From the NCBI GenBank assembly GCA_021647885.1, contig JAKITV010000005.1:23069-87068 (forward strand): a stretch of 64,000 bases of DNA. The letters are read 5' to 3'. The stretch's first letter is position 1. Every line of letters begins with the position of its first letter. The notes beneath the pieces were generated by a model, which worked only from the letters and a program-made list of their open reading frames with translations, had not been told where the DNA came from and did no database searches. The DNA is from Flavobacteriaceae bacterium (lineage in GTDB: Bacteria > Bacteroidota > Bacteroidia > Flavobacteriales > Flavobacteriaceae). Below, one piece after another: positions 488 through 25,975 of this stretch. The position numbers and the translations under genes were made by a program.

Positions 488-566
488 CAGATATTATTTT
501 TGATAAATTCTTTCATTTCTTGCCAAATTAATTAATTTGCATAATAATAATGTTCAATTTTTTTCA

Positions 567-1586
567 GTGAAGATAAATATACAAAAAATCACACCCTTTG
601 AAGCTGATGGAATTGTTTATCATGCTGATACTTGTTTACCCCTAGTTGATGCAGTTAATAGAAAAAAATTAAAATTTAAAGCCCTTGCAAGATATACATA
701 TCCTGGAGATCGTTTAACCGAAGACACTATTGGGTTAAATAGCGTAGGATATTGGGATGCTAACGAGCCACAAGACTGGGGTTTAGATTGGCATAGGAAT
801 GAGGGCATCGAAATTCATTTTTTAGAATCAGGATCTATGCCTTATTCGCAAGAAAATGCAGAAATGAAACTATTCCCAAATTGTTTAACAATTACTCGTC
901 CATGGGAAGCTCATAAAGTTGGAAATCCTTTTATTGGTGTGGGAAAATTTTATTGGGTGATTTTAGATTTAAACGTACGAAGACCGCATCAAAATTGGGT
1001 GTGGCCAGATTGGATTATTTTAGCACCAAAAGACCTTGATAGGCTTACCACTATATTAAGGCAAAATGAAAAAGTACTTTGGAAAGCCGATAAGCGCATT
1101 CGTGATTGTTTTCAACGCATTGGAAAGGCTGTGGATTCAGATAATAGTGGAAGTAATTCTTCAAAAATTAGATTATTGATTAATAATCTTTTGATTTTAT
1201 TACTAGATTTATTTAATGAGGAAGAAGTAGAACTTAATGAGCAACTTACAGATAGTTCTCGCAGTGTTAAATTGTTTTTAAAAGAACTGGAAAAAAATAT
1301 TTCTGAAGCATGGACCATAGATAAAATGGCACAATCCGCTGGAGTTGGTTTAACTAGATTTACACATCATTGTAAAAGATTAACGAATCTCACACCTATG
1401 AGATATTTAATGATGAAGAGGTTAGAATTATCAAAAACCATTTTAATAGAGAACGAATGTTTGAGTGTAGCTGAAGTTGCATTTAGTTGTGGGTTTTCTA
1501 CAAGTCAATACTTTTCTACAGTATTTAAAAAACATGAAAAATGCACACCAATAGAATACCGTCAAGAAAACATGATAACTGTATGA
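567..1586 (+). CDS. AraC family transcriptional regulator
   Basis: C-terminal double HTH (WTIDKMAQSAGVGLTRFTHHCKRLTNLTPMRYLMMKRLELSKTIL...SVAEVAFSCGFSTSQYFSTVFKKHEKCTPIEYR). ORF track starts at 537; GTG at 567 (VKINIQK) is a more likely start. Confidence 0.85.
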   Translation: MKINIQKITPFEADGIVYHADTCLPLVDAVNRKKLKFKALARYTYPGDRLTEDTIGLNSVGYWDANEPQDWGLDWHRNEGIEIHFLESGSMPYSQENAEMKLFPNCLTITRPWEAHKVGNPFIGVGKFYWVILDLNVRRPHQNWVWPDWIILAPKDLDRLTTILRQNEKVLWKADKRIRDCFQRIGKAVDSDNSGSNSSKIRLLINNLLILLLDLFNEEEVELNEQLTDSSRSVKLFLKELEKNISEAWTIDKMAQSAGVGLTRFTHHCKRLTNLTPMRYLMMKRLELSKTILIENECLSVAEVAFSCGFSTSQYFSTVFKKHEKCTPIEYRQENMITV

Positions 1587-1718
1587 TTTATTGGGCTGTT
1601 TGATTCGTTCTTAAAGTTGTTTTTTTGTTCAATTTTTTTCAGTGAATAAAAATAAACAAGATTCGTAGTTTAATTTTTTATTTTCACCTTAATATAATTC
1701 AATTTAAAATAGAATTCT

Positions 1719-2711
1719 ATGAGATACAATAAACTTATAAGTAAGGTTGTTAAAACAAGTTTATTAATTTTTTTATTAAGTTTTTTTGCTTGTGGTAACG
1801 GTCTTAAAAAAGAAAAAACGAATGAAAAAGAAACTACGCAATCTGAACCATTTTTTAAAATATCTTTAGCACAATGGTCTTTCAATAAACAAATAAGAAG
1901 TGGGGAAATGAGTCCGTTGGATTTTGCTCAAAAAGCCAGTGAACTAGGGTTTGAAGGTATAGAATATGTTAGTCAGCTTTATACAAACGAATTAAAAAAG
2001 AATGATAATCCAAAAGTAGCTATGCAGATGCTTTTAGAAACATTAAAACAAAAAAGTGAAACCCATGGCGTACTTAATCTATTAATAATGGTTGATGGTG
2101 AAGGTGATTTAGCTTCAATTAAAGAAAATGAACGCGACCAAGCTGTCGAAAATCACAAAAAATGGGTTGATGCCGCTGCATTTTTAGGATGTCATTCTAT
2201 TAGAGTAAATCTTTTTGGAACAAATAATCCTGAAATTTGGAAAAAAACCGCTGTTGATGGTCTTTCAAAACTAGCTGCCTATGCAGTAAATAAAAATATA
2301 AATATAATAGTGGAGAATCATGGTTATTTATCTTCTAATGCAGAATTGCTTGTTGAAGTTGTCAATGAAGTAAATGCTCCTAATTGTGGAGTTCTCCCTG
2401 ATTTTGGAAATTTTTGTTTAAAACGTGAAGATGGAAAACGTTGGCAAGCTAAATGTATTGAAGAATATGATAAATATAAAGGTGTAACAGAGATGATGCC
2501 AGTAGCTAAGGCAGTTAGTGCCAAGTCTTATGACTTTAACCAAAATGGAGAAGAAACAACTATAGATTATGTTAGAATGCTACAAATTGTAAAAGATGCA
2601 GGTTATACAGGTTTTATTGGTGTAGAATATGAAGGAAGTCGATTAAGTGAGGAAGAAGGTGTTGTGGCAACTAAGAAATTATTAATTGCAGCTGCTAAAA
2701 AATTAAACTAA
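1719..2711 (+). CDS. Sugar phosphate isomerase/epimerase-like TIM-barrel lipoprotein (hydroxypyruvate isomerase-like)
   Basis: Lipobox-like LLSFFACGNG; SLAQWSFNK, GFEGIEYVSQLY, NIIVENHGYLSSN, GVEYEGSR typical of the AP-endonuclease-2-like TIM family. Confidence 0.8.
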   Translation: MRYNKLISKVVKTSLLIFLLSFFACGNGLKKEKTNEKETTQSEPFFKISLAQWSFNKQIRSGEMSPLDFAQKASELGFEGIEYVSQLYTNELKKNDNPKVAMQMLLETLKQKSETHGVLNLLIMVDGEGDLASIKENERDQAVENHKKWVDAAAFLGCHSIRVNLFGTNNPEIWKKTAVDGLSKLAAYAVNKNINIIVENHGYLSSNAELLVEVVNEVNAPNCGVLPDFGNFCLKREDGKRWQAKCIEEYDKYKGVTEMMPVAKAVSAKSYDFNQNGEETTIDYVRMLQIVKDAGYTGFIGVEYEGSRLSEEEGVVATKKLLIAAAKKLN

Positions 2712-2727
2712 CTAACTTTATATACTG

Positions 2728-3957
2728 ATGAAGACTAAAACTCAAATTCAATTGTCATTTATGATGTTTCTCGAATTTTTTATTTGGGGAGGATGGTTCG
2801 TGACTTTGGGGACTTTTTTAGGAACAAATCTAGGTGCTACAGGAGCTGAAACAGGGATGGCGTTTTCAACTCAATCTTGGGGCGCAATTATAGCACCTTT
2901 TATTATTGGATTAATTGCTGACAGGTATTTTAATGCCGAAAAAATTCTGGGAATTTTACATTTAATAGGTGCCGTTTTAATGTATCAAATGTCACAAGTT
3001 TCAGACTTTAATGCGTTTTATCCTTATGTTTTAGGGTATATGATTGCCTATATGCCTACTCTGGCTTTAGTGAATTCAGTATCATTTAATCAAATGAAGG
3101 ATCCAGCAAAAGAATTTTCATATATACGAGTTTGGGGTACTATTGGATGGATTTGTGCAGGATTAGGTATTAGTTATGTATTTCATTGGGACTCTGTACA
3201 AGGAATGAAAGAAGGCTTACTCCAAAACACCTTTTTAATGACCGCAATTGTTTCGGCAATATTAGGATTGTTTAGTTTTACACTTCCAAAAACACCTCCA
3301 AAAGTTAGTAAAGAAGAAAAAGTAAAAATTTCAGATATATTAGGATTAGAGGCGATTAAACTTCTTTATAATAGAAACTTCTTAATCTTCTTTTTATCAT
3401 CTATTTTAATATGTATTCCATTAGCATTTTATTATCAAAATGCGAATCCGTTTTTAACAGAAATAGGTGTTGCTAATCCTACAGGAAAGATGACTATTGG
3501 TCAAATTTCAGAAGTGTTATTCATGCTACTGTTACCAATTTTCTTTAAAAAATTTGGATTCAAAAAAACGCTATTAATTGGCATGTTAGCTTGGGCAGTA
3601 AGATATCTGTTATTTGCTTATGGTAATTCGGGTGAACTTGCATTCATGTTATTGACAGGAATTGCATTACACGGAATTTGTTATGATTTCTTTTTTGTAT
3701 CAGGACAAATTTATACTAATTCTAAAGCAGGAGAAAAGATTAAGAGTGCAGCTCAAGGACTTATTACTTTGGGAACTTATGGTGTAGGTATGTTAGTTGG
3801 TTTTTGGATTGCAGGGCAAATTACAGATAAATATCTTATTAGTGAAGGCATGCATAATTGGAAGGATATATGGGTGTTTCCAGCAGTTTTCGCAATTGTA
3901 GTAATGATATTGTTTGCTATTTTCTTTAAAGATGAAAAAATAGAATATAAAGCTTAA
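2728..3957 (+). CDS. MFS transporter, nucleoside:H+ symporter (NupG/XapB)-like family
   Basis: MKTKTQIQLSFMMFLEFFIWGGWFVTLGTFL, about 12 hydrophobic segments, NSVSFNQMKDPAKEFSYIRVWGTIGWI. Confidence 0.8.
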   Translation: MKTKTQIQLSFMMFLEFFIWGGWFVTLGTFLGTNLGATGAETGMAFSTQSWGAIIAPFIIGLIADRYFNAEKILGILHLIGAVLMYQMSQVSDFNAFYPYVLGYMIAYMPTLALVNSVSFNQMKDPAKEFSYIRVWGTIGWICAGLGISYVFHWDSVQGMKEGLLQNTFLMTAIVSAILGLFSFTLPKTPPKVSKEEKVKISDILGLEAIKLLYNRNFLIFFLSSILICIPLAFYYQNANPFLTEIGVANPTGKMTIGQISEVLFMLLLPIFFKKFGFKKTLLIGMLAWAVRYLLFAYGNSGELAFMLLTGIALHGICYDFFFVSGQIYTNSKAGEKIKSAAQGLITLGTYGVGMLVGFWIAGQITDKYLISEGMHNWKDIWVFPAVFAIVVMILFAIFFKDEKIEYKA

Positions 3958-3977
3958 TGAACCCATAAAATAGATTA

Positions 3978-5117
3978 ATGAGCTCAAAAATTAGATTAGG
4001 AATTTTAGGAGGCGGAGGTGATTCTCTTATAGGTGTTTTGCATAGGGTTGCATCGGCAATGTATGACCAATATCAAATTGTTGGCGGCGTATTCAATCCT
4101 ATTTGGAAAGAAAACATTGGCTTTGTTGAAAACATTGGATTGCCAACTAATAGAGTGTATAAAGATTTTGACACCCTTATTGAAGAGGAATTAAAACTTC
4201 CTGAAACAAAAAGGATGCAAGTAGTATCTATACTTACGCCTAATTTCCTGCATTTTCCAATGGCTAAAAAACTATTAGAAAATGGTTTTAATGTGATTTG
4301 TGAAAAACCAATGACCACTTCGTATGAAGAGGCTAAAATATTGGAAAACACACTTCAAAAAGCAGGAACTATATTTGCGGTTACATATACCTATACAGGA
4401 TATCCAATGGTGCGTCAAATGAGGGAAATGATAGCCAATGGAGTTATAGGGAAAGTTCAAAAAATTGATTCGCAATATTATCAAGGATGGATAAATCCAA
4501 TCATTCATGATAAAGAAAAAAGAGCAAATATTTGGCGATTAAATCCTGAAAAAGGAGGTATTAGTTGTTGTATTGGAGACATAGGCACACATGCTTTCGA
4601 TATGATTGAATATATTACTCAACTTAAGGTTAATAGGGTTCTGGCCGATTTAAATTATGTCTATAGTGATAACAAAATGGATGTAGATGGCACTGTTTTA
4701 ATACGGTGTTCAAATAATGCAAAAGGAGTTATTCGTACAAGTCAAATTGCAACTGGTGAAGAAAACAGTTTTACGGTTCAAATTTACGGTGAAAAAGCTG
4801 GTTTAAAATGGGAACAGGAAAACCCTAATTATTTATACTTATTAGAAGATGGCAAACCCTTAAGAGTCTTAAAGCCAGGACATCCTTATAATAGTGAATT
4901 ATCTCTTGATGGTACAAAATTACCACCTGGACATCCTGAAGGTATTTTTGATTCAATGGGCAATATTTATAAAGGAATAGCAAAAGCAATTAAAAAAGAA
5001 CCTTATAATCAAGGAGAATTCCCTACAATAACTGATGGAGTTAGAGGAATGAATTTTATTGAACGGGTTGTAGAATCTCATCAAAACGGAAACGTTTGGA
5101 TTAATTTAGATGAATAA
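3978..5117 (+). CDS. Gfo/Idh/MocA family oxidoreductase
   Basis: N-terminal GILGGGGDSLIG, NVICEKPMTTSYEEA (EKP motif), GGISCCIGDIGTHAFDM. Confidence 0.9.
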   Translation: MSSKIRLGILGGGGDSLIGVLHRVASAMYDQYQIVGGVFNPIWKENIGFVENIGLPTNRVYKDFDTLIEEELKLPETKRMQVVSILTPNFLHFPMAKKLLENGFNVICEKPMTTSYEEAKILENTLQKAGTIFAVTYTYTGYPMVRQMREMIANGVIGKVQKIDSQYYQGWINPIIHDKEKRANIWRLNPEKGGISCCIGDIGTHAFDMIEYITQLKVNRVLADLNYVYSDNKMDVDGTVLIRCSNNAKGVIRTSQIATGEENSFTVQIYGEKAGLKWEQENPNYLYLLEDGKPLRVLKPGHPYNSELSLDGTKLPPGHPEGIFDSMGNIYKGIAKAIKKEPYNQGEFPTITDGVRGMNFIERVVESHQNGNVWINLDE

Positions 5118-5123
5118 AATTAA

Positions 5124-6176
5124 ATGAAAACGATAAAAGGACCAGCAATATTTTTTGCACAATTTATGGATGATAACCCGCCATTCAATTCTTTGGATGG
5201 TTTATGTAAATGGGCAAGTGATTTAGGATATAAGGGAGTACAGATTCCTACAACAGATCCAAGATTGATAGATTTGGAGAAAGCTGCCGAAAGCCAAACT
5301 TATTGTGATGAATTAAAAGGTAAAATTAACAGTTATGGATTAGAGATTACTGAACTTTCTACACATATTCAAGGACAGTTAGTAGCAGTGCATCCTGCAC
5401 ATGATATTATGTTTGATGCTTTTGCACCTAAACATCTTAAAGGAAATTTCAAAGGAAGAACCCAATGGGCAATCCAACAAATGAAAGATGCAGCAGTTGC
5501 AAGTAGAAGGCTGAATTTAAATGCTCATGCAACGTTTTCAGGATCATTACTTTGGCCAGCTATTCACCCTTGGCCTCAACAACCAAAGGGATTGATTGAA
5601 ATGGGATTTAAAGAATTGGCAAATCGGTGGCTACCTATTTTAAATGTATTTGATGAAAGTGGTGTAGATGTGTGTTATGAAGTGCATCCAGTTGAAGATA
5701 TTCATGATGGAGATACTTTCGAACGTTTTTTAGCAGCTACTGGAAACCATAAACGAGTAAATATCTTATACGATCCTTCACATTTTGTATTACAACAATT
5801 AGATTATATTGAGTATATAGATCATTACCATGAATTTATTAAAGCGTTTCATGTAAAAGATTCCGAATTTAATCCAACAGGAAAAAAAGGAACATTTGGA
5901 GGTTATAATGATTGGAGGAATCGTGCAGGACGTTATCGTTCGCCTGGAGATGGACAAGTAGATTTCAAGACTATTTTTTCTAAATTAACCGAATATGGTT
6001 GCGATGTTTGGGCTGTATTAGAATGGGAATGTGTTATAAAAAGTCCCGAACAGGGAGCAAGAGAAGGTGTTCCTTTTATTCAGCGTCATATTATTGAAGC
6101 CACTCAAAAAGCTTTTGATGATTTTTCAGGTGCTGATGTTGATGATGAACAACTAAAAAATATATTAGGAATTTAA
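5124..6176 (+). CDS. Sugar phosphate isomerase/epimerase (TIM barrel)
   Basis: LGYKGVQIPTTDPR, CYEVHPVEDIHDG, NILYDPSHFVLQQLDYIEYID, FHVKDSEF, VLEWEC. Confidence 0.85.
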   Translation: MKTIKGPAIFFAQFMDDNPPFNSLDGLCKWASDLGYKGVQIPTTDPRLIDLEKAAESQTYCDELKGKINSYGLEITELSTHIQGQLVAVHPAHDIMFDAFAPKHLKGNFKGRTQWAIQQMKDAAVASRRLNLNAHATFSGSLLWPAIHPWPQQPKGLIEMGFKELANRWLPILNVFDESGVDVCYEVHPVEDIHDGDTFERFLAATGNHKRVNILYDPSHFVLQQLDYIEYIDHYHEFIKAFHVKDSEFNPTGKKGTFGGYNDWRNRAGRYRSPGDGQVDFKTIFSKLTEYGCDVWAVLEWECVIKSPEQGAREGVPFIQRHIIEATQKAFDDFSGADVDDEQLKNILGI

Positions 6177-6190
6177 TTAAAAATTTAAAA

Positions 6191-6922
6191 ATGAAAAAAA
6201 TAATAATATTAATTGCTGTTGTGTTTGCAGCCTGCAAACAAACCCCAAAAGAAAAAAATATCGAAACAGAAGCTGTGGAAGAAATACAAGTAAATATAGA
6301 ATCAGAATGGATAAGCCTTTTTGACGGGACATCACTCAAGAATTGGCGTGGTTATTTAGCCGAAGATATATATCCTGAGTGGACTATTGAAAATGGCGTT
6401 ATGGTTTTTACTCCCAGTAATGAAGGAGGCAAAAATATAATTACAAAAGAAAAGTATACAAATTTTGTATTATCGCTTGAATGGATGGTTCCCGAAGCAG
6501 GGAATAGTGGTATTTTTTGGAGTGTTCATGAAGATGAAAAATACACAGAAGCATATCAAACTGGGCCAGAGATTCAGGTTTTAGATAATGAAAAGCATCC
6601 AGATTCAAAAGTTGCAAATGGAACTCATAAAGCTGGATCCTTATATGATATGATTGGTTATCCCGATAAATTTATTAATCCAGCAGGAGAATGGAATTTA
6701 TGTGTTTTAGAGATTAATCATGAAACAAATCAAGGAAAAGTAATTATGAATGGCAAAGAGGCTATAACTTTTCCAGTTCATGGAACTGAATGGGATAATA
6801 TGGTCGCTAATTCAAAATTTAAAGATTGGGAAGGATTTGGAAAATATCAAACAGGTCATATAGGACTGCAAGATCATGGTGATAAAGTCTGGTATCGTAA
6901 TATTAAAATAAAGGAACTTTAA
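6191..6922 (+). CDS. DUF1080 (3-keto-disaccharide hydrolase-like) lipoprotein
   Basis: EWISLFDGTSLKNWRGY...GNSGIFWSVHEDEKYTEAYQTGPEIQVLDNEKHPD...GHIGLQDHGDKVWYRNIKIKEL is characteristic of DUF1080. Confidence 0.9.
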   Translation: MKKIIILIAVVFAACKQTPKEKNIETEAVEEIQVNIESEWISLFDGTSLKNWRGYLAEDIYPEWTIENGVMVFTPSNEGGKNIITKEKYTNFVLSLEWMVPEAGNSGIFWSVHEDEKYTEAYQTGPEIQVLDNEKHPDSKVANGTHKAGSLYDMIGYPDKFINPAGEWNLCVLEINHETNQGKVIMNGKEAITFPVHGTEWDNMVANSKFKDWEGFGKYQTGHIGLQDHGDKVWYRNIKIKEL

Positions 6923-7100: not shown

Positions 7101-7108
7101 TAGGTTTG
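7101..7108 (+). promoter_or_regulatory. Putative Bacteroidetes -7 promoter element (TAGGTTTG) of the arginine operon leader
   Basis: TAnnTTTG consensus 5 nt upstream of the leader ORF ATG; candidate TTG at 7072-7074, but with a spacing (26 nt) longer than usual. Confidence 0.5.
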
Positions 7109-7112
7109 CCTT

Positions 7113-7181
7113 ATGATTATCACAAAAAATAAAATACGTACTACAGTTCCCAGTTTGCGCTTGCGCAATCGCCGTCGCTAA
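7113..7181 (+). CDS. Putative arginine-operon leader peptide MIITKNKIRTTVPSLRLRNRRR*
   Basis: 22-codon ORF with 6 Arg codons, 5 of them in the last 7 codons, between a promoter-like motif and the arg operon; too short for the ORF track. Confidence 0.65.
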   Translation: MIITKNKIRTTVPSLRLRNRRR

Positions 7182-7421
7182 TTCTTCTATTTAGCAACAC
7201 TTTTTATTACGTCATTTTTATTTTTTTCACCTTGTACAAAACCATTTTAATATCAGTTTTTCAAAATTTAGTTATTTCTTTAAATAACATCACTTTTACA
7301 CGCCCTTTTTTCCCGCGTCGCCCTTTGGGTGTACTTCTATTTTAAGAGCTTAGGTGAGTCCGGTTCTGTTTTTCAAAACTTAATTTTTACATTTTTTTAA
7401 TTCAAAATAAAAATCAAAACA

Positions 7422-8039
7422 ATGAAAATTGTTATTGCTGATAAATCACATAGTATTTACGCAGATATTATTTGCGAAACCATATCAAATTCCGCAAATG
7501 TAAGAGGTACTGGCATTGCAAAGCGAACATCAGAGTATATCATTACCAAAATGGAAAATGGTAATGCTGTCATTGCTTTAGATGGCACCTCCTTTGTAGG
7601 TTTCTGTTACATAGAAAAATGGGATCATGGAAAGTTTGTTGCAAATTCTGGGTTGATTGTACATCCAGATTACAGAGGGCAAGGATTAGCAAAAAAAATA
7701 AAACATGTAGTTTTTGAGCATTCTATAACCAAATTCCCAAATGCAAAGGTGTTTAGTATAACTACTGGATTAGCAGTAATGAAAATGAACAGTGATTTAG
7801 GCTATAAACCAGTAACGTTTTCTGAGTTAACCAACGATCAATCATTCTGGAAAGGCTGCCAAACTTGTAAAAATTACGATGTTCTACAACGGACAGAGCA
7901 ACAAATGTGTTTATGTACTGGAATGCTATACGACTCAAATTCAAAAGAAAACAACAATAAAAAACCAATTAAAGCGAAGGTATTTCAAAGACTAAAACGA
8001 ATTAAAGAAACCTTGTATTTAAAAAAGAATAAAAAATGA
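7422..8039 (+). CDS. GNAT family N-acetyltransferase, first gene of the arginine operon
   Basis: VHPDYRGQGLAKKIKH acyl-CoA motif; C-terminal Cys cluster CQTCKNYDVLQRTEQQMCLC; overlaps argG start. Confidence 0.8.
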   Translation: MKIVIADKSHSIYADIICETISNSANVRGTGIAKRTSEYIITKMENGNAVIALDGTSFVGFCYIEKWDHGKFVANSGLIVHPDYRGQGLAKKIKHVVFEHSITKFPNAKVFSITTGLAVMKMNSDLGYKPVTFSELTNDQSFWKGCQTCKNYDVLQRTEQQMCLCTGMLYDSNSKENNNKKPIKAKVFQRLKRIKETLYLKKNKK

Positions 8040-9223
8040 AAAAATTAGTAATAGCATATAGTGGAGGTTTAGATACTTCGTATTGTGCAGTCCATTTGTC
8101 TAAAGATAAAGGATTTGAAGTACATGCAGTAAGTGTGAATACTGGTGGGTTTTCCCAAAAAGAAATTGATACTATTGAAGCAAATGCATATAAAATGGGT
8201 GTTTCAACATATAAGAATATTGATGCTGTAGCAACATTTTATCAAAAAGTAATAAAGTATTTAGTATTTGGAAATGTGCTGAAAAATAACACCTATCCTT
8301 TATCAGTTAGTGCCGAACGTATTGTTCAAGCCATTGAAATAGTAGATTATGCAAAAAGCATTAATGCCGAATATATTGCTCATGGAAGTACAGGAGCAGG
8401 AAATGACCAAGTTAGATTCGATATGATTTTTCAAACTTTAGCACCAAAAATAAAAATTATTACGTCAATAAGAGATAATAATCTCTCAAGAGAAGAGGAG
8501 ATCGATTATTTAAAAAGGAATGGAGTCGATATGTCTTGGGAGAAAGCAAAATATTCTATAAACAAAGGACTTTGGGGAACAAGTGTTGGAGGAGAAGAAA
8601 CCTTAACTTCAGAAAACCCATTACCAGAACATGCATACCCTTCGCAATTAGAAAAAGAAGGTGAAGAAAAAGTAACACTTTCTTTTAATAAAGGAGAATT
8701 GGTTGCTGTAAATGGAAAAGAGAATAGTCCTCAAATTAATATTAAGTTATTGAATGATTTAGCGTCAGCTTATGCCATTGGTAGAGATATTCACGTTGGA
8801 GACACTATTGTAGGGATTAAAGGACGTGTAGGTTTTGAAGCTGCTGCTGCTTTAATCATCATAAAAGCACATCATTTACTTGAGAAACACACACTAACCA
8901 AATGGCAAATGCAGCATAAAGATTATTTGGCAAGTTTTTACGGAATGCATTTACACGAAGGACAATATTTAGATCCTGTAATGCGAAATATTGAAGCCTT
9001 TTTACAAAGTAGTCAAGAGCAAGTTTCAGGCGATGTTTTTGTTACTTTAAAACCATATCATTTTACCCTTGACGGAATTAACTCTGAACATGATTTAATG
9101 AATATCGATTTTGGAAGTTACGGCGAAATAAATAAAAGTTGGACAGCAGATGAAGCAAAAGGATTCATTAAAATTCTTGGCAATCAGAATAAAATTTATC
9201 ATCAAATAAATAAGACATTATGA
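8036..9223 (+). CDS. argG: Argininosuccinate synthase
   Basis: MKKLVIAYSGGLDTSYCAVHLSKDKGFEV...; operon context. Confidence 0.95.
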   Translation: MKKLVIAYSGGLDTSYCAVHLSKDKGFEVHAVSVNTGGFSQKEIDTIEANAYKMGVSTYKNIDAVATFYQKVIKYLVFGNVLKNNTYPLSVSAERIVQAIEIVDYAKSINAEYIAHGSTGAGNDQVRFDMIFQTLAPKIKIITSIRDNNLSREEEIDYLKRNGVDMSWEKAKYSINKGLWGTSVGGEETLTSENPLPEHAYPSQLEKEGEEKVTLSFNKGELVAVNGKENSPQINIKLLNDLASAYAIGRDIHVGDTIVGIKGRVGFEAAAALIIIKAHHLLEKHTLTKWQMQHKDYLASFYGMHLHEGQYLDPVMRNIEAFLQSSQEQVSGDVFVTLKPYHFTLDGINSEHDLMNIDFGSYGEINKSWTADEAKGFIKILGNQNKIYHQINKTL

Positions 9224-10197
9224 TACAAGTAGGAATAATTGGAGGTGCAGGTTATACAGCAGGAGAGTTAATAAGAATTTTGCTTTTTCATTCAAAAGCA
9301 GTCATTAACTTTATCTATAGCACGTCAAATGCAGGCAATAAAGTAAGTAGTGTCCATCAGGATTTGGTTGGATCAACAGATTTGATTTTCACAAATGAAA
9401 TCAACACAGAAGTAAATGTGCTATTCTTGTGTTTAGGTCATGGAAATTCGAAAGCATTTTTAGAAGAGCATTCGTTTTCTAAAAACACTAAAATCATCGA
9501 TTTAAGTAACGATTTTAGATTGAAAGCTGATAAAGTTTTTAATGATAAAACGTTTGTATATGGTTTGCCTGAATTACAAAAAGAAGACATAAGGAGAGCA
9601 AACTATATTGCTAATCCAGGTTGTTTTGCAACTGCCATTCAATTAGCAATTTTACCATTAGCACATCAAAACGTGTTAGATAAAGATGTTCACGTAAATG
9701 CGGTTACTGGAGCAACTGGAGCAGGAACATCTTTATCAAAGACCACACACTTTACGTGGCGAGACAATAACTTTTCCTATTACAAACCATTTATACACCA
9801 ACATTTAGGAGAAATACATCAAACAGTAAAGCAATTACAGGATGATTTTACTTCAGAAATTCTTTTTATTCCAAACAGAGGTAATTTTTCGAGAGGCGTT
9901 TTTGCTATTGTTTATACCAATTTTGACGGTAGTTTATATGACGCGAAAGCGATGTATAAATCGTTTTACAAAGATGCTGAGTTTACATTTGTTTCAGATG
10001 AAGAATTGCATTTAAAACAAGTAGTAAATACCAACAAATGCTTGATTCATTTGTATAAACACAACAATAAATTATTAATTACAAGTATTATAGATAACCT
10101 CCTAAAAGGAGCTTCTGGTCAAGCTGTTCAAAATATGAATTTAATGTTTGGTTTTGCTGAAACAGAAGGATTACAACTTAAAGCAAATTATTTTTAA
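9220..10197 (+). CDS. argC: N-acetyl-gamma-glutamyl-phosphate reductase
   Basis: MIQVGIIGGAGYTAGELIRILLFHS; IANPGCFATAIQLAILPL active-site Cys. Confidence 0.95.
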   Translation: MIQVGIIGGAGYTAGELIRILLFHSKAVINFIYSTSNAGNKVSSVHQDLVGSTDLIFTNEINTEVNVLFLCLGHGNSKAFLEEHSFSKNTKIIDLSNDFRLKADKVFNDKTFVYGLPELQKEDIRRANYIANPGCFATAIQLAILPLAHQNVLDKDVHVNAVTGATGAGTSLSKTTHFTWRDNNFSYYKPFIHQHLGEIHQTVKQLQDDFTSEILFIPNRGNFSRGVFAIVYTNFDGSLYDAKAMYKSFYKDAEFTFVSDEELHLKQVVNTNKCLIHLYKHNNKLLITSIIDNLLKGASGQAVQNMNLMFGFAETEGLQLKANYF

Positions 10198-10205
10198 TTA
10201 AACCA

Positions 10206-10238
10206 AGACCTCACAGGTTTTTAAAACCTGTGAGGTCT
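10206..10238. repeat. 33-bp near-perfect palindrome AGACCTCACAGGTTTT-T-AAAACCTGTGAGGTCT (copy 1)
   Basis: 16-bp arms with 1-nt centre; identical 33-mer at 56325-56357. Confidence 0.95.
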
Positions 10239-10253
10239 AAAAAAAAATAAACT

Positions 10254-11054
10254 ATGAAAATAGCAATTATAGGTACAGGAAATTTAGGATGCTCAATCGC
10301 AAAAGGATTGATTACAGCAAATGCCATTACAACTTTGTATTTAACCAAAAGGAATTTAAGTTCGATTCAAGATTTTGAAGGCTACAAAAATGTTATTATT
10401 ACTTCTAACAATATTGAAGCAGTAAAGAATTCGGATATTTTAATTTTTGCCGTTCAGCCAGCACATTTTGAATCTATTTTAAAAGACATTGCACCTTTTT
10501 TAACAGAAAATCATGTATTAATTTCTACTATTACTGGTTTTGTAATTTCAAAGATTGAAGCTCTTGTTGGTCAGGAGCAATTTATTATTAGAGCCATGCC
10601 AAATACAGCCATAGCAGTTGGAAAATCTATGACCTGTTTATGTAGTAATGAAAATAGTAAAAAACGCATAAAGATTGCCGAAGCTATTTTTAACCGTTTA
10701 GGAACGTCTATTTCTATTCCTGAAGACCAAATGCAAGCTGCAACTGTAGTTTGTGCCAGCGGAATTGCCTTTTGGATGCGTCTTATAAGAGCGACAACAC
10801 AAGCCGCAATTCAATTGGGTTTTGATGCTAAAGAAGCACAAGAGCTCGCCATGCATACTTGTGAAGGCGCAGCCAATTTGTTAATTACAACAGGCAATCA
10901 TCCAGAACAGGAAATTGATAAAGTAACAACACCAAAAGGATGCACCATTGAAGGTTTGAACGAAATGGAACATAAAGGGTTAAGTTCATCTTTAATTCAA
11001 GGTATGGTTACTTCGTTCAATAAAATTAACACTATTAAGACAGAACAATTATGA
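10254..11054 (+). CDS. proC: Pyrroline-5-carboxylate reductase-like protein
   Basis: MKIAIIGTGNLGCSIAKGL; IIRAMPNTAIAVGKSMTCL. Confidence 0.9.
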   Translation: MKIAIIGTGNLGCSIAKGLITANAITTLYLTKRNLSSIQDFEGYKNVIITSNNIEAVKNSDILIFAVQPAHFESILKDIAPFLTENHVLISTITGFVISKIEALVGQEQFIIRAMPNTAIAVGKSMTCLCSNENSKKRIKIAEAIFNRLGTSISIPEDQMQAATVVCASGIAFWMRLIRATTQAAIQLGFDAKEAQELAMHTCEGAANLLITTGNHPEQEIDKVTTPKGCTIEGLNEMEHKGLSSSLIQGMVTSFNKINTIKTEQL

Positions 11055-12175
11055 GCTTATTTAATGTATATCCTTTATTCGACATTACACCTGTAAGAGC
11101 CAAAGATGTATATGTGTTTGACGAAAAAGGAATAAAATATTTGGATCTTTATGGAGGTCATGCTGTGATTTCTATTGGACATTCGCATCCTGAATATATA
11201 ACAAAAATAAGTGAACAGTTAAATACAATTGGGTTTTATAGCAACTCGATTCAGAATCCTTTGCAAGTTGAATTGGTTGAAAAACTAGGACAACTTTCTG
11301 GTTGTGAAAACTACCAATTGTTTTTATGTAATTCTGGAGCCGAAGCTAATGAAAATGCATTGAAGTTAGCATCGTTTCATACAAACAAAAAAAAGGTGCT
11401 GTCATTTAAAAATTCGTTTCATGGCAGAACTTCGGCAGCAGTTGCTGTAACTGATAATCCTAAAATTGTAGCGCCAATTAATGCCCAGCAAAACGTTGAG
11501 TTTGTAGCATTGGGTGATTTAGAAGCTGTAGAAAAAGTGTTGTATAACAATGATATTTGTGCAGTAATTGTTGAGGTTATTCAGGGCATTGGAGGTTTGG
11601 ATGAAAGCACTTCAGAATTTTATCAAGGCTTAAAGAAATTATGTAAAAAACACAATACACTTTTAATTGTAGATGAGGTGCAATCTGGCTTTGGAAGAAC
11701 AGGCGATTTCTTTGCGTTTCAAAAACATAATATTGAGCCTGATATTATTTCTATGGCAAAAGGTATGGGAAATGGTTTCCCAATTGGAGGAATTTTAATT
11801 CATCCAGATATTAAAGCATCTTTTGGGTTATTAGGAACAACATTTGGTGGCAATCATTTGGCTTGTGCAGCATCACTGTCAGTGTTAAAGGTGTTAGAGA
11901 GCGAACAATTAATGCAAAACGCAAAAGATGTTTCAGAATATTTTATTAAAAAAGCACAATCTATACCAGAAGTAAAAGCAGTTAAAGGAAGAGGTTTAAT
12001 GTTAGGATTAGAGTTTGATTTTAATATTTCAGAATTACGAAAAAAACTCATTTTCGAGCATCATATTTTTACAGGAAGTGCAAAAAATCCAAATTTATTG
12101 AGAATACTTCCTCCATTAACTATTCAAAAGCACCATATCGATGTGTTTTTTGAAGCATTACGGCAGGAATTGTGA
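11051..12175 (+). CDS. argD: Acetylornithine/succinylornithine aminotransferase (class III)
   Basis: CNSGAEANENALKLA, SFKNSFHGRTSAAVAVT, LLIVDEVQSGFGRTG, ISMAKGMGNGFPIGG. Confidence 0.93.
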   Translation: MSLFNVYPLFDITPVRAKDVYVFDEKGIKYLDLYGGHAVISIGHSHPEYITKISEQLNTIGFYSNSIQNPLQVELVEKLGQLSGCENYQLFLCNSGAEANENALKLASFHTNKKKVLSFKNSFHGRTSAAVAVTDNPKIVAPINAQQNVEFVALGDLEAVEKVLYNNDICAVIVEVIQGIGGLDESTSEFYQGLKKLCKKHNTLLIVDEVQSGFGRTGDFFAFQKHNIEPDIISMAKGMGNGFPIGGILIHPDIKASFGLLGTTFGGNHLACAASLSVLKVLESEQLMQNAKDVSEYFIKKAQSIPEVKAVKGRGLMLGLEFDFNISELRKKLIFEHHIFTGSAKNPNLLRILPPLTIQKHHIDVFFEALRQEL

Positions 12176-12180
12176 AATAT

Positions 12181-12207
12181 CCTGCAAGGTTTTTGAAACC
12201 TTGTAGG
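12181..12207. repeat. Degenerate relative of the palindrome (CCTGCAAGGTTTTTGAAACCTTGTAGG)
   Basis: 12-bp arms with one mismatch, intergenic argD/argF'. Confidence 0.7.
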
Positions 12208-12237
12208 TTTAAAATTAAATAGAAGTTCAATTAAAAA

Positions 12238-12259
12238 GATTCCCACTTTCGTGAGAAAT
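12238..12259 (+). repeat. Start-codon-proximal hairpin, GATTCCCACTTTCGTGAGAAAT
   Basis: Same 22-nt architecture at 15234-15255 and 29846-29867. Confidence 0.7.
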
Positions 12260-12263
12260 GAAT

Positions 12264-13199
12264 ATGAAAAAATATACAGACATAAAAGACATAGCAAATC
12301 TCTCTGAAACCATTCAAGAAGCCATTCAATTGAAACAAAATCCATTTCAATTTGAATATTTAGGAAAGCACAAAACCTTGGTCATGTTATTTTTCAACTC
12401 TAGTTTAAGAACACGATTAAGTACCGAAAAAGCAGCAAAAAATTTGGGGATGCAAGTCATGGTTTTAAACGTAACAGATGCCTGGAATTTAGAGTTTGAA
12501 GATGGAACAATTATGAATTTAAACACTTCCGAACACATCAAAGAAGCTGCTCAAGTTATTTCGCAATATGCCGATATTATTGCTGTGAGAGCATTCCCTA
12601 GTTTGATAAATAAGCAAAAAGATGAGTTAGAAATTGTGCTCAGTGGCTTTATAAATTATGCTTCTGTGCCAATTATAAATATGGAAAGTTCAATGGCACA
12701 TCCTTTACAAGCATTAACAGATGGCATTACCATAGAAGAGTTAAAAACTAATAAAAACCCAAAAGTAGTATTGTCTTGGGCACCACATCCAAAAGCATTG
12801 CCGCATGCTGTGGCAAATTCGTTTGTAAAAATGATGCAAGAGCTAGAAGTGGATTTTAGTATTACCCATCCTGAAGGCTATGAGTTGAGTAGAGAAATAA
12901 CAAAAGGCACACCAATTAATTACAATCAGAAAGAGGCTTTAAAGGACGCCGATTTTGTGTATGTGAAGAATTGGAGTAGTTATAATGATTATGGGAAAGT
13001 TTTAAATGAAGATACAAATTGGATGATGACACAAGAGAAGCTTGGGAAAGCCAAGTTTATGCATTGTTTGCCAGTACGACGAAATGTGGTTGTTGAGGAT
13101 GCTATTTTAGATAGTGAGCAATCTATAGTGATTCAACAAGCCAATAATAGAACGTTTGCAGCACAAATTGTTTTAAAGAAAATATTAGAAAATTTATAA
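12264..13199 (+). CDS. argF': N-acetylornithine/N-succinylornithine carbamoyltransferase
   Basis: NSSLRTRLSTEKAAKNLG carbamoyl-phosphate motif, NMESSMAHPLQALTD, FMHCLPVRRN; Bacteroidetes arg operon context. ORF track starts at 12258; the ATG at 12264 avoids overlap with the hairpin. Confidence 0.9.
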   Translation: MKKYTDIKDIANLSETIQEAIQLKQNPFQFEYLGKHKTLVMLFFNSSLRTRLSTEKAAKNLGMQVMVLNVTDAWNLEFEDGTIMNLNTSEHIKEAAQVISQYADIIAVRAFPSLINKQKDELEIVLSGFINYASVPIINMESSMAHPLQALTDGITIEELKTNKNPKVVLSWAPHPKALPHAVANSFVKMMQELEVDFSITHPEGYELSREITKGTPINYNQKEALKDADFVYVKNWSSYNDYGKVLNEDTNWMMTQEKLGKAKFMHCLPVRRNVVVEDAILDSEQSIVIQQANNRTFAAQIVLKKILENL

Positions 13200-13246
13200 T
13201 AAAATGTCAGGTTGAGCGCAGTCGAAACCTATTTAAGTATAAAATT

Positions 13247-14026
13247 ATGAAGACACTAAAAATCATAAAAATAGGAGGAAACATTATTGATAACGAAGAT
13301 GCGTTACACTCTTTTTTAAAAGAGTTTTCTAAGCTAAAAGGATCTAAAATTCTAGTTCATGGCGGCGGGAAATTAGCAACCCAATTAGCTAATAAAATGA
13401 ATGTTGAAGTTAAAATGAGTAATGGCAGACGTATTACTGATGTAGAAACATTAGACATAATTACTATGGTTTACGCAGGAAAAATCAATAAAACAATTGT
13501 TGCAAAATTACAGGCACAGCAATGTAATGCAGTTGGATTTTCGGGTGCAGACGGCAATACTATTGTGTCTGTAAAGCGACATGTAAAAGAGGTAGATTTC
13601 GGATATGTTGGAGATGTTGTTATGGTGAATATTTCAGTATTGAAAACCCTTTTAAAAACTAATTGTACACCAGTTTTTTGTGCTATTACGCACGATGAAA
13701 ATGGACAATTACTAAACACAAATGCTGATACTATAGCTAGTGAATTGGCAATTGCTTTTGCAGAAGTGTATAAAACAGAGTTATACTACTGTTTTGAGAA
13801 GAGTGGAGTACTTGAAAATGTTGATGACAATGCTTCAGTGATTGAAGATATAACTACCGAAAATTTTCAAACTTTGAAAGATCAAGGCACTATAGCCGAT
13901 GGTATGTTACCAAAATTAGACAACTGCTTTCATGCAATAGCACACAATGTAAGCAAAGTATGTATTGGGAAACCAGAATTGCTTTTTAATTCAAAATCAA
14001 AATTCACAACAATTACAGCTAAATGA
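13247..14026 (+). CDS. argB: N-acetylglutamate kinase
   Basis: LKIIKIGGNIIDNEDAL, ILVHGGGKLATQL, DGMLPKLDNCFHAI. Confidence 0.95.
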   Translation: MKTLKIIKIGGNIIDNEDALHSFLKEFSKLKGSKILVHGGGKLATQLANKMNVEVKMSNGRRITDVETLDIITMVYAGKINKTIVAKLQAQQCNAVGFSGADGNTIVSVKRHVKEVDFGYVGDVVMVNISVLKTLLKTNCTPVFCAITHDENGQLLNTNADTIASELAIAFAEVYKTELYYCFEKSGVLENVDDNASVIEDITTENFQTLKDQGTIADGMLPKLDNCFHAIAHNVSKVCIGKPELLFNSKSKFTTITAK

Positions 14027-15090
14027 TACAAGAACGATTAATAACAAATGCGATAACCTTACTCAAAAACCTAATTGAGACGCCTTCTTTTTCTTCTCAA
14101 GAAGAAAAAACAGCTACGCTTATTGAGAACTGGTTCAAACAGCAAAATATCCCTTTTAATAGAACGATTAATAATGTATGGGCAACCAATGCATATTTTG
14201 ACGACACTAAACCAACACTGTTGCTCAATTCGCATCACGATACGGTAAAACCTAATAATGCTTACACTAAAGATCCTTTTAAGGCTGTAGTTGAAAACGG
14301 AAAATTATTCGGTTTAGGCAGCAATGATGCAGGTGGTTGTTTGGTGTCTTTATTGGCAACGTTTATCCGTTTTTATAATGAAAAGCATCTGAAATATAAC
14401 TTGGTTTTTGTGGCTTCTGCCGAAGAAGAAAGTAGTGGCAAAAACGGATTGAATAGTATGCTAAATGTCATTCCAAAGGTTGATGTCGCTATTGTTGGCG
14501 AACCAACACTTATGAATTTAGCTGTAGCTGAAAAAGGGCTGGTGGTTTTTGATGCTATTGTAAAAGGAACACCAAGTCATGCAGCACATACTAACGCCGA
14601 TAATGCAATTTATAATACGATTAATGTATTGAAATGGTTTAAAGACTTTCAATTTAAAAAGAGTTCAGAAACATTAGGTAATGTAAAAATGACAGTCACA
14701 CAAATCAATGCTGGGAAGCAACATAATGCAGTTCCAGATGAGGTAAAATTGGTGATAGATGTTCGTGTAAATGACGCATATACTAATCAAGAGATAACAG
14801 AATTATTGGTTAACAATGCACCTTGCGATAGTATTGTGCCGAGAAGCTTAAGGTTAAATTCCTCAGCAATTCCAATAAATCACGAATTAGTGCAAGCTGG
14901 ATTAGCAATAGGAAGAACAACTTATGGCTCGCCAACCTTATCAGATCAAGCAGTATTGAGTTGTCCATCCCTAAAATTAGGACCTGGAGATAGCACACGT
15001 TCACATTCGGCAGATGAATTTATTTACATCAATGAAATTGAAGAAGGAATACAAATTTATGTTGATTTATTGAAGAAGGTAATTGTATAG
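14023..15090 (+). CDS. argE: M20 family deacylase (acetylornithine deacetylase type)
   Basis: LLLNSHHDTVKP, LGSNDAGGCLVSLL, SAEEESSGKNG. Confidence 0.92.
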   Translation: MIQERLITNAITLLKNLIETPSFSSQEEKTATLIENWFKQQNIPFNRTINNVWATNAYFDDTKPTLLLNSHHDTVKPNNAYTKDPFKAVVENGKLFGLGSNDAGGCLVSLLATFIRFYNEKHLKYNLVFVASAEEESSGKNGLNSMLNVIPKVDVAIVGEPTLMNLAVAEKGLVVFDAIVKGTPSHAAHTNADNAIYNTINVLKWFKDFQFKKSSETLGNVKMTVTQINAGKQHNAVPDEVKLVIDVRVNDAYTNQEITELLVNNAPCDSIVPRSLRLNSSAIPINHELVQAGLAIGRTTYGSPTLSDQAVLSCPSLKLGPGDSTRSHSADEFIYINEIEEGIQIYVDLLKKVIV

Positions 15091-15091
15091 T

Positions 15092-15188
15092 GTCATAACG
15101 AGGGGTGAAGCTAAGCCAGTACTGAGCGTAGTCGAAGTATGGTTACTTATAATTATTAAACAGATTGCTTCATTTCATTCGCAATGAC
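15092..15188. repeat. Composite dispersed repeat GTCATAACGAGGGGTGAAGC...CGCAATGAC with a nested ACTGAGCGTAGTCGAAGTAT unit
   Basis: Terminal inverted GTCAT.../...ATGAC, and an internal ACTGAGCGnAGTCGAAGTAT-like module related to 13204-13230. Confidence 0.75.
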
Positions 15189-15233
15189 GTATTTAATGAT
15201 AAAATTAGAAAATAACTTAAAAAAGGAAGTAGA

Positions 15234-15255
15234 GATTTCTGCTTTCGCAGAAAAT
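15234..15255 (+). repeat. Start-codon-proximal hairpin, GATTTCTGCTTTCGCAGAAAAT
   Basis: TTTCTGC-TTTC-GCAGAAA stem directly 5' of the argH ATG at 15257. Confidence 0.75.
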
Positions 15256-15256
15256 T

Positions 15257-16531
15257 ATGAAACTCTGGGACAAAGGAATATCAATCGATAAAAAAATAGA
15301 ACTATTTACCGTTGGCAACGACAGAGAAATAGACTTGCATATTGCAAAATACGACGTGCAAGCCTCTTTGGCACATGCTAAAATGTTGAATAAAATTAAG
15401 ATTATTTCTGCGGAAGAATTGCAACAACTTGAAGAAGGGTTAAATACATTGCAACAACAAATTGAAAACAATACGTTTGCAATCGAGCCTCAATTTGAAG
15501 ATGTGCATTCAAAAATTGAATTCGAACTCACAAAAAAATATGGAAACGTTGGAAAAAAAATCCATACAGCACGTTCCAGAAACGATCAGGTGTTGGTGGC
15601 TTTGCATTTATTCTATAAAGACAACTTAAAACTGGTTTATGATAAAACTAAAGTTCTATTTAATACACTGCTACAACTAGCCGATACGCATAAAGATAGT
15701 TTGCTTCCAGGATATACACATTTGCAAGTGGCAATGCCATCATCATTTGGGTTGTGGTTTTCAGCCTATGCCGAATTATTGATAGACGATGTATATCTGT
15801 TACATGCAGCGTTAAAAACCGTAGATCAAAATCCGTTGGGTTCAGCAGCTGGTTATGGAAGTTCGTTTCCTATTGACAGAGAATTTACAACACAAGAATT
15901 GAAGTTTTCAACCTTAAAATACAATGTTGTTGCTGCACAAATGAGTCGTGGTAAAAGCGAACGCACCATTGCCGCATCTTTAGGAAGTTTGTGCAATACC
16001 TTGGGACGATTTGCAATGGACATTTGTTTATATATGAGCCAGAATTTTGATTTTATTTCGTTTCCAGATGCGCTCACCACAGGAAGTAGCATTATGCCGC
16101 ATAAAAAAAACCCAGATGTGTTTGAATTAATTAGAGGCAAGTGTAATAAGATTCAAGCCTTGCATACAGAAATGCTGTTAATTACCAACAATTTACCTAG
16201 TGGTTACCATCGCGATTTTCAGCTATTAAAGGAAAATATGATTACTGCTTTTGAAGACGTGAATGATATTTTAGACATTTTTAATTATGCCATCCAGCAA
16301 GTAATTGTAAAGGAAATCGATCTAAAAGATGAAAAATATAAACATCTTTTTACAGTAGATAGTATTAATAATTTGGTAGTTGAGGGCTTATCGTTTAGAG
16401 AGGCATACCAACAAATTGGAGAGGAAGTAAAAACAGGAACTTACAAACCAGAACCTTCAAAGCAGCATACACATATTGGCAGTATTCATAATTTATGTTT
16501 GGATAAGATTAGAGAGAAGTTTCCAGATTAG
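15257..16531 (+). CDS. argH: Argininosuccinate lyase
   Basis: TGSSIMPHKKNPDVFELIRGKCNK signature; MKLWDKGISIDKKIELFTVGNDREIDLHIAKYDVQASLAHAKML. Confidence 0.95.
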   Translation: MKLWDKGISIDKKIELFTVGNDREIDLHIAKYDVQASLAHAKMLNKIKIISAEELQQLEEGLNTLQQQIENNTFAIEPQFEDVHSKIEFELTKKYGNVGKKIHTARSRNDQVLVALHLFYKDNLKLVYDKTKVLFNTLLQLADTHKDSLLPGYTHLQVAMPSSFGLWFSAYAELLIDDVYLLHAALKTVDQNPLGSAAGYGSSFPIDREFTTQELKFSTLKYNVVAAQMSRGKSERTIAASLGSLCNTLGRFAMDICLYMSQNFDFISFPDALTTGSSIMPHKKNPDVFELIRGKCNKIQALHTEMLLITNNLPSGYHRDFQLLKENMITAFEDVNDILDIFNYAIQQVIVKEIDLKDEKYKHLFTVDSINNLVVEGLSFREAYQQIGEEVKTGTYKPEPSKQHTHIGSIHNLCLDKIREKFPD

Positions 16532-22104: not shown

Positions 22105-22182
22105 AAAAGTGAATAAATATTTGGTTTTTAAATTTTTCTGACTGAATATTTGTATTCACAAAGTTCAAAGACTTATTGAGAT

Positions 22183-22301
22183 GTTATCAAGAAAGGTGGA
22201 GGGATTAGACCCCGTGAAACCTTAGCAACCCTTTATTAGTAAAGAAGGTGCTAAATTCTACCCAGTTCTGAACTCGTTTCAGGATTTTATGGATAGATAA
22301 C
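22183..22301 (+). ncRNA. SAM-I (S-box) riboswitch upstream of the metX-like gene
   Basis: GTTATCAAGAAAGGTGGAGGGATTAGACCCCGTGAAACCTTAGCAACCC...AAGGTGCTAAATTC...GATAAC; P1 GTTATC/GATAAC. Confidence 0.93.
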
Positions 22302-22404
22302 TAAGCGAAATTGCTTTCTGTGATTTCTATTTTTTCTTCATAACATTTTCTATTAAGCATGTCAATTTTGACGCATTTGGCTTTGGTTTTAATTAAAATA
22401 AATA

Positions 22405-25728: not shown

Positions 25729-25835
25729 TTAAAAAAAATGAGGAGTTTTAGAACTACATATTTTTTCAGCCTTAAAATTGTGTAAACAAAAAATTAATTC
25801 CTTTATTTGTACACAAGTTCAAAAACATATTGATT

Positions 25836-25975
25836 GTTATCACGAAAGGTGGAGGGAAAAGACCCTATGAAACCTTAGCAACCCTTTTACATTAAAGAAG
25901 GTGCTACATTCTTCCTTGTCCTGAACTTGTTTTCAGGATCTTTTAGTCTAATACTAAAAGTTTAAGACAGATAAC
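25836..25975 (+). ncRNA. SAM-I riboswitch upstream of metH
   Basis: GTTATCACGAAAGGTGGAGGGAAAAGACCCTATGAAACCTTAGCAACCC...AAGGTGCTACATTC...GATAAC; P1 GTTATC/GATAAC. Confidence 0.93.

Follow-up and report, generated by a model that had tools for sequence, protein, structure and literature searches.

A probable ribosome-read, arginine-sensing leader RNA with two leader reading frames ahead of the Flavobacteriaceae arg operon

How does a flavobacterium adjust the expression of its arginine biosynthesis operon, and what part is played by the RNA that precedes the first gene? The question is raised by a 64,000-nucleotide stretch of DNA (the window), in which a short, arginine-rich open reading frame follows a promoter motif upstream of the arg genes. 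A preliminary description had read this arrangement as ribosome-mediated attenuation of classic architecture: a 22-codon ORF with six Arg codons behind a TAnnTTTG motif, followed by about 240 nt of untranslated sequence. Comparative analysis leads us to a different layout, and we consider it probable that positions 7113-7421 form a ribosome-read, arginine-sensing leader RNA of a two-stage type that controls the arg operon. The elements that frame the problem are the following.

7101-7108, plus strand: sigma-A -7 box TAGGTTTG, 4 nt 5' of the ORF1 ATG
7113-7181, plus strand: ORF1, the Arg-rich leader of 22 codons (ATG 7113-7115, TAA 7179-7181), product MIITKNKIRTTVPSLRLRNRRR
7422-8039, plus strand: first gene of the operon, a GNAT acyltransferase (PF00583 and PF13508 above cut-off)
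8036-16531, plus strand: the remaining arg operon from argG (8036) to argH, comprising argG, argC, proC-like, argD, carbamoyltransferase, argB, argE-like and argH genes

ArgG and the carbamoyltransferase of the operon were identified by search; the other names were assigned by inspection of the translations. Given the succinylated arginine pathway of Bacteroidetes (PMC7311316), the GNAT enzyme is probably an N-succinylglutamate synthase. Just upstream of the leader, at 537-6922, lie genes for an AraC-like regulator, sugar isomerase-like and transporter-like proteins and a 3-keto-disaccharide hydrolase (PF06439), all named by inspection except the hydrolase. The window also contains two SAM riboswitches (RF00162) on the plus strand, at 22181-22303 and 25834-25957, both above gathering score; no tRNA or tmRNA was found in it.

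The coordinates and codon counts of ORF1 were confirmed. Five of its six Arg codons fall within the last seven codons; the lone Arg is codon 9 (7137-7139), and the Arg run occupies codons 16-22. The preliminary description had suggested an alignment with other Flavobacteriaceae, and this comparison bears out an Arg leader ORF ahead of the arginine operon as a trait conserved in the family. A GNAT search of 201 family genomes and an ArgG search of a genome collection together yielded 110 loci, of which the 101 with GNAT present and upstream sequence served as the denominator. In 91 of these 101 relatives, an Arg-rich ORF starts 3-6 nt past a TAnnTTT(G/A) box, in most cases some 300 nt upstream of GNAT. 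Box and ORF are separated by 4 nt in 71 of them and by 5 nt in 18; 89 of the ORFs start with ATG and two with GTG. Conservation is specific to the reading frame, which is open in 91/91 relatives (0/91 and 3/91 for the remaining two frames), and pN/pS of close pairs is lowest in frame 0 (0.53 versus 1.12 and 1.18). No further Arg-rich short ORF directly after a promoter box was found in the 64,000-nt window.

The spacing between box and ORF1 bears on the 5' end of the mRNA. In Flavobacterium psychrophilum, the sigma-A box TAnnTTTG is placed at -12 to -5 relative to the transcription start site, and leaderless transcripts make up just 5.5% of mRNAs (PMC9723704). Together with the 4-nt gap, this placement predicts the A of the ORF1 ATG (7113) as position +1. 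Because ORF1 stands at a near-fixed distance from the box in its relatives, the arg leader mRNA is probably leaderless or nearly so, which agrees with the earlier suggestion of leaderless or near-leaderless translation. The fate of the fold proposed for the Arg region itself (TTGCGC-TT-GCGCAA) was mixed: the hairpin is present in the window, but it is missing from many relatives, where it is replaced by other sequence, e.g. CCCGTGCGCAGT, and was rejected as a conserved element.

The 240 nt described as untranslated contain another conserved ORF along with conserved RNA hairpins, and further helices connect or lie within the two ORFs.

7124-7140, plus strand: 5' strand of helix P0, within ORF1 codons 4-10
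7208-7226, plus strand: 3' strand of helix P0, directly ahead of the ORF2 start
7232-7345, plus strand: ORF2, the second leader (start TTG, Arg-Arg-Pro codons 7316-7324, TAA 7343-7345)
7271-7288, plus strand: hairpin inside ORF2 (GTTATTT...AAATAAC)
7319-7331, plus strand: hairpin P2, CGCCC-TTT-GGGTG, spanning the end of the Arg-Arg-Pro codons
7346-7366, plus strand: hairpin P3, with covarying arms and an invariant core AGGTGAGTCC at 7352-7361

When the ORF2 frame is defined from an ATG, GTG or TTG 27-31 codons upstream of the P2 Arg codon, it is open in 94/94 anchored relatives, compared with 2/94 for each other frame and 13% expected from shuffled sequence. An anchor that is independent of frame, the first ATG, GTG or TTG past the T run, leads to the same frame in 83/83 cases. 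The stop codons interchange among the 94 relatives (TAA 73, TAG 18, TGA 3), the ending Arg-Arg-Pro occurs in 77 of them, and pN/pS of close pairs is again lowest in frame 0 (0.56). In the window, ORF2 continues for six codons past Pro (PLGVLLF), so that its stop lies outside the P2 loop. From this frame conservation we infer that both ORF1 and ORF2 are translated. If the short ORFs encoded small proteins with a function of their own, unrelated to the RNA elements, the kept reading frames would be explained; the peptides vary widely among relatives outside their Arg-rich ends, however, Pfam and NCBIfam searches of them gave no match, and pN/pS of both ORFs is only moderately below 1, with a weaker signal at wider distances. 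We therefore regard this explanation as scarcely credible. ORF2, P2 and P3 together apparently represent the more widely conserved, older-looking part of a leader device, a part that the preliminary description had missed.

Both leaders favour the Arg codons CGC and CGU, against genomic usage. CGC makes up 56% of the Arg codons in ORF1 and 44% in ORF2, versus 6-7% in the genes of the window and in the argG genes of relatives; AGA accounts for 7-8% in the leaders versus 43-44% in the same two gene sets. This bias fits the sensing of one tRNA-Arg isoacceptor, and for ORF2 the pairing within P2 could be part of the explanation.

Hairpin P2 is nearly invariant across 55 aligned relatives, with compensatory forms in three (L122, L123 and L136), and in most relatives its loop carries the ORF2 stop. 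The P3 stem consists of six pairs, each of which is changed on both sides among relatives; its covariation score is 0.314 versus 0.132 ± 0.018, and 0 of 500 shuffles scored as high. Within this freely varying stem the core AGGUGNGUCC showed no change across the 55 relatives that were aligned on P2; later sets, gathered by the core itself, provide no test of its invariance. The core has a single match in the window versus 0.03 expected. It has been lost in a few relatives, e.g. L024 and L081, in which ORF1 is retained upstream of GNAT and P2 and P3 have decayed, a natural case of loss. In single-sequence folds, P3 has a UGNGU loop on two G-C pairs, with a bulged A beneath them. The core is also nearly complementary to the 3' tail of 16S rRNA (GGAUCACCU), which is odd for a phylum that makes no use of Shine-Dalgarno pairing and may be a coincidence.

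Could P3 be the binding site of a regulatory protein? A search for the arginine repressor ArgR (PF01316) gave no match in any of 121 family genomes, but did give matches in nine control genomes, one of them a Bacteroides; one further family genome (G178) gave a weak match. An inverted repeat ahead of a biosynthetic operon might be a DNA operator for a repressor, but the P3 arms change in sequence with pairing retained, which points to an RNA rather than a DNA element, and with ArgR not found we give this reading almost no weight. A better candidate, albeit still an unlikely one, is an RNA operator for an arginine-sensing protein, with the leader ORFs merely setting timing or ribosome coverage. 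The missing ArgR and the invariant core within a variable stem speak for it, as does the bulged A that the folds place two pairs beneath the loop, reminiscent of hairpins bound by proteins. Such an operator leaves the conserved Arg codons, the unusual codon choice and the stop codon in P2 unexplained, and comes without a candidate protein.

The two leader ORFs are joined by helix P0; between the end of its 3' strand and the ORF2 start codon downstream lies a median of 4 nt (85 relatives). In a test on 22 non-redundant relatives, in which relatedness is only partly controlled, cognate P0 strands gave a mean duplex energy of -10.5 kcal/mol versus -7.5 ± 0.5 kcal/mol for permuted strands, and 0 of 20000 permutations were as low. 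RNAalifold on the full leader had missed P0 because the U-rich strand was misregistered; the comparison of cognate with permuted duplexes recovered it. In Flavobacterium johnsoniae, folding of the region just before the start codon depresses initiation (PMC6847099). Among relatives with two ORFs the hairpin inside ORF2 covaries as well, each of its six pairs being double-changed in at least one sequence. By sequence, the 5' arm of P2 (CGCC) could alternatively pair with the P3 core (AGGUG), a possibility that was considered and set aside: the core is invariant, so that covariation offers no test, and L136 has no partner for it. No conserved competing pairing among the leader structures was demonstrated, while P0, P2 and P3 themselves are supported.

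A covariance model of P2-P3 matched 71 of the 121 family genomes, at one site each except in G076, where a weak second match (C10, 800373-800415, E 0.002) lies away from the arg operon. The motif accompanies the GNAT gene, being present in 70 of 75 GNAT-bearing genomes versus 1 of 46 without GNAT; five GNAT-bearing genomes had no match. In the lone GNAT-less genome with the motif (G085), both leaders and P2-P3 are kept ahead of argG, but a gene for a different protein has taken the place of GNAT at the head of the arg operon (locus L155, 1220-3056). Across 297 genomes of the class, all matches below E = 1e-3 fell within Flavobacteriaceae, and two marginal matches lay outside the family. Rfam 15 gave no match at gathering score over the leader in the window or over those of five relatives, and only chance-level matches at the leader below that score. 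In one relative a Flavo-1 RNA (RF01705; L032, 6189-6271) is located downstream of argG. P2-P3 is thus absent from Rfam, occurs essentially once per genome and is found with confidence only ahead of Flavobacteriaceae arg operons.

A conserved structured RNA ahead of one pathway only might suggest a riboswitch aptamer, formed by P2-P3, whose direct ligand would be arginine or an intermediate of the pathway. P2-P3 is very small for an aptamer, however, coincides in part with a coding region including the stop codon, has no Rfam relative and is accompanied by Arg-codon leaders in every form seen, so that a riboswitch appears very improbable.

These forms differ in the number of leader ORFs. In other Flavobacteriaceae a one-ORF form is found, in which ORF2 starts 6-7 nt past a TACATTTG-like box and ends in RRRP-stop, without ORF1. 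On the GNAT tree, with classes assigned by script and weak support for the deep branches, the two-ORF form comprises essentially one large clade, and the one-ORF form its sister and deeper branches. Some one-ORF calls inside the two-ORF clade (L021, L028, L037, L107) reflect a missed or truncated ORF1, and L172/L143 represent a separate two-ORF case. From this placement, ORF2-P2-P3 looks ancestral and ORF1-P0 a later addition. A divergent form was seen in Aestuariibaculum (L062, L064, L071, L073), with one ATG-started leader ending in ARRFRRPLRV and a P2-like hairpin far upstream of GNAT.

Is the leader then a classical attenuator, with ORF1 as the only arginine sensor and a terminator/antiterminator pair within 7182-7421 governing elongation? 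As in attenuators of the trp/his type, a putative leader ORF in which codons for the amino acid of the pathway form a run stands directly ahead of the arg operon, and the window has one weak terminator-like site, namely P2 with its T-rich tail. Among 63 non-redundant relatives, however, no conserved intrinsic terminator was found after P2 or P3, as runs of at least five U follow P2 in only 11 and P3 in only six. Since no conserved U tract lies past either hairpin, the leader does not qualify as a classical attenuator; with the TTGCGC hairpin not conserved either, the proposed classic architecture does not hold. Classical attenuation also leaves ORF2 and P3 unexplained, as well as the relatives that lack ORF1 altogether, and we consider it improbable.

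We return to the two-stage leader RNA. The retention of ORF1 in about 90 relatives, the second leader and the conserved hairpin suggest that the cell probably gauges arginine by the movement of ribosomes. When charged tRNA-Arg of the isoacceptor reading CGU and CGC is scarce, ribosomes would slow on the Arg codons of the leaders. A ribosome on ORF1 codons 4-10, Arg9 included, would open P0 and expose the ORF2 start; a second one, stalled at Arg-Arg of ORF2, would cover the 5' arm of P2, and the resulting RNA state would let expression pass into the arg operon. With plentiful arginine, ribosomes would pass quickly and the operon would be turned down. Besides the conserved parts themselves, the P0 coevolution, the codon bias, the close association of P2-P3 with this operon and the missing ArgR speak for this reading; the only moderately low pN/pS, the lack of a conserved intrinsic terminator, the ORF2 stop outside the P2 loop in the window, the partial control of relatedness in the P0 test and the five GNAT-bearing genomes with no P2-P3 match speak against it. 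Candidate output steps are Rho termination, RNA polymerase pausing, mRNA decay or a protein acting on P3. The complete scheme, in which a leaderless ORF1 gates the ORF2 start through P0, the ORF2 ribosome sets the hairpin over its own stop, the family-specific P3 reads the output without an intrinsic terminator and the whole device stands in for ArgR, is offered tentatively and is appreciably less secure than arginine sensing by a leader RNA as such.

In the searchable literature, essentially the main texts of open-access papers, neither an arginine leader of Flavobacteriaceae nor such tandem leaders nor P3 was found described. Already known are leaderless leader ORFs (PMC7298713, PMC11857589) and the suspicion, voiced for F. 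psychrophilum, of leader-peptide attenuation ahead of amino-acid operons (PMC9723704). The present analysis provides a concrete arginine control element for a family in which ArgR was not found and translation is independent of Shine-Dalgarno pairing, contributes a conserved RNA hairpin that Rfam does not contain and describes a leader device that was seemingly extended during evolution by a second, leaderless sensing ORF.

Several known systems share single traits with this leader. Like the trp, his and leu attenuators, it has a leader ORF rich in codons for its own amino acid, near the predicted transcription start and before a biosynthetic operon; it differs in that no conserved intrinsic terminator was found, in its two P0-joined leader ORFs and in P3 with its invariant core. 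The leader ORFs of Sinorhizobium meliloti trpL (PMC7298713) and Corynebacterium glutamicum ilvBNC (PMC11857589) are located, or treated as located, at the mRNA 5' end, as is predicted here, but concern tryptophan and branched-chain amino acids, respectively, with a single leader ORF and in other phyla. Within the same family, structured 5' regions were described in F. psychrophilum, of which the pheA and hisG elements are conserved and absent from Rfam; the main text of that study names no arginine operon (PMC9723704). The closest parallel is the Salmonella orf34-speF leader, where folding and stability of the mRNA depend on a pair of consecutive Arg codons and Rho is countered when orf34 (SpeFL) is translated (PMC6386406). 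Consecutive Arg codons in a short leader ORF are present here too, as Arg-Arg before Pro/stop in ORF2 and as the Arg run of ORF1, and arginine sensing, tested in speF, is proposed here. ORF1, ORF2 and two relatives' ORF2 gave no Pfam match at E up to 1, and so none to DUF2618 (PF10940), the family of the SpeFL peptide, in a search whose power is limited by the very short queries. In speF the position of the ribosome decides downstream folding, including that of a hairpin near the ORF stop, comparable to P2, and Rho termination and mRNA decay take part (PMC6386406). The speF leader differs in controlling an ornithine decarboxylase, in its Shine-Dalgarno start and in its ornithine-sensing arrest peptide (PMC6386406), whereas the leader described here has two leader ORFs and P3.
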